Source of the DNA: Burkholderia sp. BCC0322
Lineage (GTDB): Bacteria > Pseudomonadota > Gammaproteobacteria > Burkholderiales > Burkholderiaceae
NCBI RefSeq assembly: GCF_902833045.1
Contig: NZ_CADFDU010000002.1
Span: forward strand, 62,001 to 126,000
Direction of reading: 5' to 3'
Length of the DNA stretch: 64,000 bases
Part shown: piece after piece, positions 49,599 to 51,032 of the stretch
Layout of the letters: each line of letters starts with the position of its first letter
Position numbering within the stretch: the stretch's first letter is position 1
Notes under the pieces: model-generated
The model's database searches: none
Told to the model about the DNA's origin: nothing
What the model saw: only the letters and a program-made list of their open reading frames with translations
Translations under genes and position numbers: made by a program

Positions 49599-50810
49599 TC
49601 ACCGCCCGGCCTCCCTCGCATCGAACACCCGCACACAGACGGCCGCCGCCAGCGCGATCGCGGCCGACAACAGCATCATCACGAGCGGCGCATAGCCCGC
49701 GTTGCCGGCCGTCAACACCGCCCCCGTCAGCGACGAAAGCGTGGCGCCGCCGGCGATCGTCATCGCGCCCGCCAGCCCCGACGCGCTGCCTGCCAGTTCC
49801 GGGCGCACCGACACCGCGCCGGCATGCGCCCCGGGATTGGTCAGCCCGTTGCCGATGCCGACCAGCACGCACGGCCCGAACCATGCAATCGCCTGCGTCG
49901 CGCCACCGAACATCAGCGCGAGGCCGATCAACGGCCCCGCGCATGCGACGACGCGCCCGCACAGGATCGTCGTGGCCAGCGCGTAGCGGCGCGCGTAACG
50001 CGCGGCCAGGAAGCTGCCGCACACGAAGCCGGCCGTGATGGTGCCCATGTAGACGCCGATCTCCGCGGGCGCGATGCCGAACACCGTTTGCGCGGCGAGC
50101 GGCGCACCGGCCAGGAACGCGTAGAACGAGCCGGTCGAAAACGCCATGCAGAGCGCATAGGCCCAGAAACGGCGCGCACGGAGCAGCGCCGGATACGCGC
50201 GAAGCTGCTGCGCGAGGCTCGACGACCGGTTCGCATGGGTTTCGACGAGATCGAACGCACACCAGACGAACAGCGCGACGCCGGCCGCGCCGAGCAGCCA
50301 GAAACTCGCGCGCCAACCCATCGTCTGGTCGATCGCGCCGCCGAGCGTCGGGCCGAGCATCGGCGCGAACGCGGCCGCCATCGCCGCATAGCCGATCCGG
50401 CTCGCCACGCGGGCACCGCCGCCGGTATCCCGGATCGTCGCCATCGACACCGGATAGACCGACGTGATCGCCGCCTGCATCAGCCGACAGGCGAGGAACG
50501 CACGAATATCGGTCGCCATCGCGCAGCCGAGCGAGCCGAGCGCGAACACGCCGACGCTCGCCAGCACGACCGGCCGCCGCCCGAACCGGTCCGACAGCGG
50601 CCCCATCACGAACTCGAGCGACGCGGCCACGGCCGCATAACCGCCGAGCGACAGCGCGACGAGCGCATAGTCGGCGCGCAGGTCGCGCGCGATGGCCGGC
50701 AGCGACGGCAGGAACAGGCTCAGCGGCAGCACCGAGCACGCGCACAGCAGGATCAGCGTCGCGTGTCGCGGCGACGCCCGTTCGGAAGCGATCGGCAGGT
50801 TCGATTGCAA
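49599..50810 (-). CDS. Bcr/CflA-type multidrug MFS efflux pump
   Basis: A 403-residue, 12-span efflux protein. The A-like motif GPLSDRFGRRPV and the C-motif AFAPMLGPTLGGAIDQTMGWRASF mark the drug:H+ antiporter Bcr/CflA group. I set the start at TTG 50810 because GGAGG stands 8 bases before it, while the GTG at 50825 and frame further up have no ribosome site. An own promoter, leader peptide and terminator lie directly upstream (listed separately), pointing to transcription attenuation. Confidence 0.85.
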   Translation of the reverse strand: MQSNLPIASERASPRHATLILLCACSVLPLSLFLPSLPAIARDLRADYALVALSLGGYAAVAASLEFVMGPLSDRFGRRPVVLASVGVFALGSLGCAMATDIRAFLACRLMQAAITSVYPVSMATIRDTGGGARVASRIGYAAMAAAFAPMLGPTLGGAIDQTMGWRASFWLLGAAGVALFVWCAFDLVETHANRSSSLAQQLRAYPALLRARRFWAYALCMAFSTGSFYAFLAGAPLAAQTVFGIAPAEIGVYMGTITAGFVCGSFLAARYARRYALATTILCGRVVACAGPLIGLALMFGGATQAIAWFGPCVLVGIGNGLTNPGAHAGAVSVRPELAGSASGLAGAMTIAGGATLSSLTGAVLTAGNAGYAPLVMMLLSAAIALAAAVCVRVFDAREAGR

Positions 50811-50852
50811 GCGGATGCCCTCCACGCACGTGCCGCACGGCCGTGCGCAACG

Positions 50853-50881
50853 AAAAAAAAGCCCCCGAACGAGTCGGGGGC
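50853..50881 (-). terminator. Intrinsic terminator in the efflux-gene leader
   Basis: On the minus strand GCCCCCGA pairs with TCGGGGGC around a 5-base loop, followed by eight T. It is a textbook terminator, 43 bases ahead of the efflux gene start and transcribed in the same direction. It may also stop transcripts from the upstream protease gene. Confidence 0.9.
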
Positions 50882-50921
50882 GCATGGGTGCCGGCGCGGT
50901 GCCGCTACCGGACCCTGCGCC
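50879..50921 (-). promoter_or_regulatory. Alternative antiterminator hairpin
   Basis: The leader RNA can pair GGCGCA with UGCGCC, GGGU with ACCC and CCGG with CCGG, each step separated by at most one unpaired base on the 3' side. Its 5' arm lies in codons 12-14 of the leader peptide and its 3' arm shares three bases (50879-50881) with the terminator stem, so the two structures exclude each other. Confidence 0.6.
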
Positions 50922-50955
50922 TGTGGACGACTACGATGAAGATGGCTGCCTGCAT
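50905..50955 (-). CDS. 16-residue leader peptide of the efflux gene
   Basis: It reads MQAAIFIVVVHRRRVR then TAG. AGGAG lies 9 bases upstream of the ATG, a strong site. Two of its Arg codons are AGG, rare in this GC-rich genome. It lies between a promoter (51003-51032) and the terminator, the standard place of a regulatory leader ORF. I infer that ribosome position on it decides which hairpin forms. Confidence 0.65.
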   Translation of the reverse strand: MQAAIFIVVVHRRRVR

Positions 50956-51002
50956 GCCGGATGGCTCCTGGTTGACTGGCTGACTGCGTGCGATATCGGA
51001 CG

Positions 51003-51032
51003 ATGGTAGGGGGACGATACCGACCGCGTCAA
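51003..51032 (-). promoter_or_regulatory. Sigma-70 promoter of the efflux-gene leader
   Basis: TTGACG and TACCAT on the minus strand are separated by 18 bases, matching the consensus at 5 of 6 and 4 of 6 positions. The -35 box starts 5 bases after the stop of the protease gene. The expected transcript starts near 50996. Confidence 0.6.

Follow-up and report, generated by a model that had tools for sequence, protein, structure and literature searches.

Attenuation by a translated leader has been dissected experimentally in the Corynebacterium glutamicum ilvBNC leader (MTIIRLVVVTARRLP), in which the AUG lies at +2, a GGC lies at +36-38, and a GCC is common to the antiterminator and the terminator. 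Val-to-Ala changes are reported to abolish the valine response of this leader, and loss of the AUG to lower expression by 80% (PMC11857589). We analysed a 64,000-nucleotide stretch of Burkholderia sp. BCC0322 (contig NZ_CADFDU010000002.1, positions 62,001 to 126,000 of the forward strand), hereafter the window, in which a short leader open reading frame (ORF) and two overlapping hairpins precede a gene for a transporter of the major facilitator superfamily (MFS). We propose, with a probability of roughly 0.7, that this leader is a ribosome-mediated, ilv-type transcription attenuator, responding to valine or branched-chain amino acids (BCAA), placed before a Bcr/CflA-type transporter gene. Its parts are as follows.

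51003..51032, minus strand: promoter-like TTGACG-N18-TACCAT, sigma-70-like, with 9 of 12 matches
50965..50969, minus strand: Shine-Dalgarno AGGAG of the leader ORF, conserved in the alignment
50905..50955, minus strand: leader ORF of 16 codons, MQAAIFIVVVHRRRVR plus TAG, from the sequence and the parsed leader ORFs (34/37)
50926..50934, minus strand: Val codons 8-10 (GTA GTC GTC), proposed control codons from codon counts
50879..50921, minus strand: putative antiterminator hairpin from folding, GGCGCA (50921-50916) with UGCGCC (50884-50879), its 5' arm being codons 12-14
50893..50921, minus strand: alternative hairpin GGCG...CGCC on the 5' arm of the antiterminator, a candidate anti-antiterminator from the RNAalifold consensus of 28 leaders
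50879..50881, minus strand: boundary GCC, common to antiterminator and terminator in the folding
50853..50881, minus strand: intrinsic terminator GCCCCCGA-CTCGT-TCGGGGGC followed by eight T (stem 50881-50861)
50818..50823, minus strand: Shine-Dalgarno GGAGGG of the transporter gene, from the sequence
49599..50810, minus strand: TTG-start MFS transporter gene of the Bcr/CflA (TIGR00710) type, 403 amino acids, by profile match

An earlier note on this DNA had named the promoter, the 16-codon leader, the two hairpins sharing three bases and the TTG-start MFS gene, and all of them were recovered at their minus-strand places. A promoter-like pair of this kind was found once in the real sequence against a mean of 0.0 in 50 shuffles, and one terminator was found where 0.2 would be expected by chance. 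The upstream neighbour of the leader is a gene for an HtrA/Do-like protease. A TTGAC/TA...T pair also precedes the leader in L033, L034, L036, L110, L111 and L115; two of these loci (L034 and L036) are without the upstream protease gene, yet the pair is kept before the leader.

To examine the leader peptide, leader ORFs were parsed by script from related genomes, which succeeded for 34 of 37 (not L027-L029); with L030 and L031 left out, 32 leaders were counted, and codon places were numbered back from the stop codon. At the codon 8 place, Val is found in 30 of the 32 leaders (as GTA in 27), and at the codon 9 place in 31, where the codon varies synonymously (GTA 22, GTC 8, GTT 1). Ile stands at the place of codon 7 in 25/32, and codons 2-6 are more variable than codons 8 and 9. 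The run of Ile, Leu and Val codons is thus conserved as amino acids, as in an ilv-type attenuator. The noted changes of ORF length are whole codons (+1 in L018 and L024; +8 in L026 and L030). In the alignment of the Burkholderia leaders, the 5' half is variable, and there is hardly any nucleotide variation from codon 12 to the U tract.

We next examined the folding of the leader RNA. The 223-nucleotide RNA has a lower folding energy than shuffled versions of it (z -2.49), of which 2 of 200 folded as stably. The earlier note had set the two hairpins against each other as alternatives, and this stood in part: the antiterminator and the terminator are mutually exclusive over the three shared pairs only, and in the minimum-energy fold the terminator coexists with most of the second hairpin. 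The GGC of the antiterminator lies at leader nucleotides 35-37. Given the places of AUG and GGC in the C. glutamicum leader, the GGC occupies ORF nucleotides 35-37 in both systems, and the antiterminator arm begins at ORF nucleotide 35 also in three leaders of Roseobacteraceae. When the front edge of the ribosome is assumed to lie at the first base of the P site +15, a ribosome with codon 8 in the A site leaves the GGC free, and the computed energies of the antiterminator and terminator states are -39.3 and -39.7 kcal/mol; in the growing transcript the antiterminator is predicted to form before the terminator. With the ribosome one codon past codon 8, the GGC is computed to be covered, and the terminator state alone is left. 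These computations bear out the build of a leader-peptide attenuator that the earlier note had described, with the Val codon 8 as the point at or before which a ribosome would free the antiterminator arm. Among 40 leaders for which state energies were computed (L030 and L031 left out), the two states conflict in 38, with an energy difference of -1.1 to +2.2 kcal/mol.

From this geometry we infer the following course of events. When charged tRNA-Val (and tRNA-Ile and tRNA-Leu) is sufficient, the leader ribosome would move past codon 8 and cover the GGC, and the terminator would close. When Val-tRNA is short, the ribosome would wait at or before the GUA codon 8; the antiterminator would then be the first to form and would sequester the GCC required by the terminator, and transcription would continue into the transporter gene. 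Such an arrangement suggests that the transporter answers to amino acid shortage, and the compound that it handles is probably tied to BCAA supply, either as a BCAA-related solute or as an antimetabolite that starves the cell of BCAA.

The leader is found together with the transporter gene. It was matched at E<1e-17 in 37 of 65 Burkholderia genomes, and this conservation is, among the sequence evidence, the best argument against a chance origin of the leader elements. A covariance model (R1) built from 28 leader sequences matched at E<1e-14 in 37 of 398 Burkholderiaceae genomes (36 Burkholderia and one Paraburkholderia), and the transporter gene was found at E<=1e-100 in 40. Both were present in 35 genomes, that is, in 35/37 of those with the leader and 35/40 of those with the gene. 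Of the two genomes with the leader but no full gene, G055 contains the gene in pieces only and G052 has none in the stretch. About 9 kb separates the leader from the gene in G034 and about 1.4 kb in G062, and in G048 they lie on separate contigs, with the leader near a contig end. The transporter genomes without a leader are G013, G018, G024, G033 (gene truncated) and G061. The U tract of the orphan leader of G052 (L030) is interrupted, and in the displaced leader of G034 (L031) the inner hairpin is much weaker and the terminator stem contains a mismatch; these two are the lowest-scoring of the 36 Burkholderia copies (76.0 bits for L030 and 72.6 bits for L031; the other 34 reach at least 80.3). 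Their weakening fits a cis role that was lost once the gene had gone or moved, as far as two cases can tell.

Weaker matches to R1 in the family were also followed. Among the 17 places examined, one was true (L075 in G399, which coincides with L110 of P. fungorum); the other 16 showed neither a comparable leader ORF nor a transporter gene in the stretch. Three weak repeats from the search of the 65 Burkholderia genomes (L039, L043 and L044) each matched the leader core over some 31-33 bases only. Five genomes of genus g11 (L080, L081, L082, L083 and L091) share a conserved stretch ending GCCGCCGACCCGCTCGGCGG plus a T run, followed in L082 and L091 by an ORF beginning ATGTCCGACGCGTTC; many further g11 genomes had R1 hits of similar size. 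This stretch is unrelated to the window leader and is possibly another leader or a terminator. At L146 (in G024) and L205 (a B. multivorans plasmid), the promoter-like stretch TTGACGG/TCTACCAT is kept, and the leader is replaced by another sequence with the terminator-like CCCGATTCGATCGGGATTTTCT before the MFS gene.

The best acetolactate synthase locus of four Burkholderia and Paraburkholderia genomes had no such leader in the 600 nucleotides upstream; in two of these genomes a short ORF, VKVCAAGRCVV, without a terminator, lies there. Relatives of the leader before acetolactate synthase genes were found through the Rfam family RF02502 (Atu_C8), which is filed as a small RNA (sRNA) of Rhizobiales. 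Above its cut-off, RF02502 gave 22 hits in 18 of the 398 genomes of a phylum sample and none in 14 control genomes. The downstream gene is acetolactate synthase in 18 of the 22 (L152-L155, L157-L162, L164-L169, L182 and L184), with an ORF rich in Ile, Leu and Val before it, and the window-type MFS gene in the remaining four; NCBIfam, run on three of the acetolactate synthase cases and two of the MFS cases, agreed with these calls. Hits below the cut-off at E<=0.01 came from 55 further genomes and stand outside this count. In a second sample of 385 genomes, drawn from the class to which G660 belongs, there were only two matches at E<=1e-6, both already known. By its position and its Ile/Leu/Val-rich ORF, RF02502 reads as an acetolactate synthase attenuator, and 18 of 22 relatives thus precede a gene of BCAA synthesis. 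The name Atu_C8 was not found in the results returned by a literature search; an earlier survey of proteobacterial attenuators (Vitreschak et al. 2004) may already describe rhizobial ilv leaders. At several RF02502 loci the ATG lies directly 3' of a -10-like box, and the mRNA may be leaderless there. In one rhizobial genome, a second acetolactate synthase gene (L182, G445:C1049) has a leader that hardly differs from the MFS-type leaders of relatives.

The leader also precedes orthologues of the transporter outside Burkholderia. GTDB species genomes were scanned with the transporter protein, which gave 52 loci. R1 found the leader at 19 of the 21 Burkholderiaceae loci, 1.4 kb upstream at one of them (L096), and did not find it at L104 (B. 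territorii) or at L112, where the contig begins 150 nucleotides before the gene. A leader lies upstream of the orthologue at 12 alphaproteobacterial loci (L114-L120, L123, L124, L126, L128 and L129), with peptides such as MNVEMIFVVVGTRMGKAA, MSVDLVSFVVGRRMGRVA, MRAVIFIVGSVRMVA and MNTASVMVVVGRRMGRMV. Of these leaders, ten score at or above the RF02502 gathering threshold, and the other two, L115 and L120, are matched by R1 instead (E 2.2e-10 and 7.5e-4). No leader was found at the Comamonadaceae loci L121, L122, L127 and L130, and over loci with distant transporters (L132-L143) R1 gave weak hits only (E >=0.16). Plasmid records with an MFS relative numbered 21, of which 10 were read; a leader was present at five, by RF02502 in L200 and L207 and by R1 in the Roseobacteraceae plasmids L201, L202 and L204 (MTFNFVVVVSKRCMVR, MSVKFVVVVSRRCMVR and MTVKFVVVVSKRRMVR). 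Orthologue-associated leaders occur in Paraburkholderia, rhizobia, Rhodospirillaceae and Roseobacter plasmids.

At some loci a thiamine pyrophosphate (TPP) riboswitch (RF00059) stands in place of the leader. It precedes the MFS orthologue in Mesorhizobium (L113:2333-2449 and L125:2309-2425) and at plasmid loci of Agrobacterium (L198:1848-1964) and Mesorhizobium (L206:1809-1925); the plasmid loci L199, L203 and L205 have neither a leader nor a TPP riboswitch. In a tree of 44 transporter proteins, the Burkholderiaceae proteins and the Mesorhizobium protein with a TPP riboswitch group together (99/98), and the placing of this joint group among the leader-bearing alphaproteobacterial proteins is partly weakly supported (80/42 at one fork). 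On the sequences compared, Burkholderiaceae probably acquired leader and gene together from Alphaproteobacteria. One reading of the tree is that in Mesorhizobium and Agrobacterium a TPP riboswitch replaced the leader, with losses elsewhere.

Covariation was examined in 27 chosen alphaproteobacterial leaders (594 cells; L160, L167-L169 and L184 left out), which fold into a hairpin P1, a hairpin P2 with the stop codon in its loop, and a terminator. These pair in 97.6% of the cells (shuffled mean 93.7), and in 27 cells both partners are changed, a count that none of 500 shuffles reached (shuffled 8.5). The three diverged leaders L167-L169 fold P1 with different letters. The earlier note had expected the peptide and compensatory stem changes alike to be conserved: the peptide is kept (Val in 30/32 and 31/32), whereas compensatory changes were seen in the alphaproteobacterial relatives and not within Burkholderia.

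Several results weigh against a valine/BCAA attenuator. Within the 28 Burkholderia leaders, none of the 21 pairs of the RNAalifold structure is changed on both sides, and in a 21-row set of overlap-type leaders from Burkholderia and Roseobacteraceae, pair counts are no higher than in shuffles, the stems hardly varying. Two of the five measures used for the alphaproteobacterial set are likewise not above shuffles (four pairs altered in both partners, a number reached by 68 of 500 shuffles, and 12 further pair types, reached by 118 of 500), and the both-side changes sit in P2 and the terminator, none in P1. The near-equal energies of the two states are not independent evidence because most leaders share identical letters there, and because RNA-level conservation spans the 3' half of the ORF, a separate constraint on the peptide cannot be discerned there. 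L034, which has a 5-base-pair terminator, and L120 form antiterminator and terminator without conflict. In rhizobial leaders P1 and the terminator lie about 8-10 nucleotides apart; no alternative pairing or antiterminator is predicted, and a family-wide antiterminator was sought among rhizobia and dropped. An exclusive terminator and antiterminator with a ribosome-exposed arm is accordingly a computed property of the window type, not of the rhizobial relatives, L034 or L120. The window scores 20.9 bits against RF02502 (E 0.98), under the gathering cut-off of 50, so that the link between the two runs through intermediates and synteny. In a Streptomyces coelicolor ilvB leader, changing the candidate control codons is reported to have had no effect (PMC1262725). 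No BCAA gene was found among the 10 neighbouring ORFs scanned, five of which had Pfam matches, and the neighbours were uninformative as a clue to the substrate. Lastly, on the Leisingera plasmid L201, the MFS relative with the leader lies near a chloramphenicol phosphotransferase gene. A relative on the Pseudomonas hygromyciniae plasmid L203 lies near an aminoglycoside phosphotransferase gene; the leader was not found there.

We then weighed other explanations. The earlier note had proposed that an antibiotic arrests the ribosome on the nascent leader peptide, as in erm, msrD or cmlA leaders, and thereby induces an efflux gene. A leader ORF before an efflux-type gene, the Arg-rich peptide end of most Burkholderia leaders and the plasmid relatives near genes of drug-modifying enzymes fit this proposal; a drug-halted ribosome at codon 7 would, by computation, yield the same RNA switch, and in S. 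meliloti a DUF1127 gene is reported to be attenuated by an upstream ORF that responds to tetracycline, although no intrinsic terminator takes part (PMC12218461). The peptide end, however, is what changes: RRR-VR becomes RRM-VR, RCM-VR or RMG-xV in relatives (SRRMVR, SKRCMVR, GRRMGRMV), whereas the Val run stays, and the sequences show no conserved motif for drug-dependent arrest. A halt at the Arg residues would moreover be expected to cover the antiterminator arm and favour termination, and the relatives in RF02502 precede acetolactate synthase in 18 of 22 cases. The comparative evidence thus disfavours an antibiotic as the signal, and we consider it unlikely. The earlier note had designated the gene as a Bcr/CflA drug efflux gene. 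The window protein is an MFS protein of TIGR00710 type (E 4.9e-58) whose 197.4 bits lie just below the cut-off of 200.9, with orthologues on either side of it (L163, 212.6; L156, 178.6); among PDB sequences it matches MdfA and 'Multidrug resistance protein D' best. As judged from these matches, the 'drug efflux' label is a matter of family resemblance alone.

Alternatively, the element might be a trans-acting sRNA, as RF02502 is filed, with the terminator as its 3' end. Its nucleotide conservation from codon 12 to the U tract is what such an RNA would show. The presence of the gene in 35/37 leader genomes, the whole-codon changes of ORF length and the weakened look of the two leaders no longer beside the gene (L030 and L031, two cases only) speak for a role at the gene instead, and an independent sRNA appears improbable, though an sRNA by-product is possible by analogy with rnTrpL. 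Least probable, by a little, is a general sensor of translation rate, in which rare codons answer any slowdown and not valine specifically: GTA makes up 4/155 Val codons and AGG 4/179 Arg codons in five window genes, and AGG occupies the codon 12 place in 28/32 leaders and the codon 14 place in 26/32, but these AGG codons are part of the antiterminator arm, where base pairing constrains them, codon 9 still encodes Val where it has changed synonymously (GTC in 8/32), and in three Roseobacteraceae leaders the four Val are encoded by a mixture of codons.

Acetolactate synthase is a TPP enzyme. A more speculative extension of the valine/BCAA attenuator, which we regard as rather doubtful, is that it was captured to sense falling Val-tRNA charging and to open an exporter of antimetabolites, such as inhibitors of acetolactate synthase or aminoacyl-tRNA synthetases. 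The TPP riboswitch of the sister lineage would do likewise for thiamine antimetabolites, and one transporter family would carry interchangeable 'target-starvation' sensors; a single transporter clade with either a leader-peptide attenuator or a TPP riboswitch offers a natural case. If the valine/BCAA attenuator is real, a 'multidrug efflux' transporter joins the BCAA regulon, which gives a handle on its substrate; an Rfam 'sRNA' family would have to be reread as an acetolactate synthase attenuator; and the GCC-sharing switch geometry of C. glutamicum would have a proteobacterial counterpart. Among the papers listed by a literature search, none was seen to describe an attenuator before a Bcr/CflA gene.

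The closest described system is the ilvBNC leader of C. glutamicum (ilvB-II motif), which, as described, shares with the window a leader of 15-16 codons with VVV followed by RR, a third hairpin on the same 5' arm and states of comparable stability (PMC11857589, PMC10272879). It belongs to an actinobacterium and precedes biosynthesis genes, and its upstream ORF begins one nucleotide after +1, whereas the window has a proteobacterial, Shine-Dalgarno-led upstream ORF before an MFS transporter gene; the two are likened here by published description. RF02502 resembles the window in having a leader before acetolactate synthase or MFS orthologues, with a peptide ending like VVGRRMGRMV, and consists of P1, P2 with the stop codon in its loop and a terminator. 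It differs in that the window falls under its gathering cut-off, in that the rhizobial P1 and terminator do not overlap, and in the rhizobial ATG directly after a -10-like box. The cmlA leader is regulated by translational attenuation, drug-induced arrest freeing a ribosome-binding site. It resembles the window in that a short leader ORF precedes a member of the wider Bcr/CflA/CmlA group; the window differs in its intrinsic terminator and Val run. The trp attenuator rnTrpL/peTrpL of Sinorhizobium meliloti is alphaproteobacterial, and its leader peptide affects a multidrug efflux operon; it is described as acting in trans on the efflux mRNA (PMC7298713, PMC10117765), whereas the window attenuator would act in cis before the transporter gene. 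Against these systems, the type of mechanism proposed here is ordinary and its target is unusual, an ilv-type attenuator before an efflux-type transporter.

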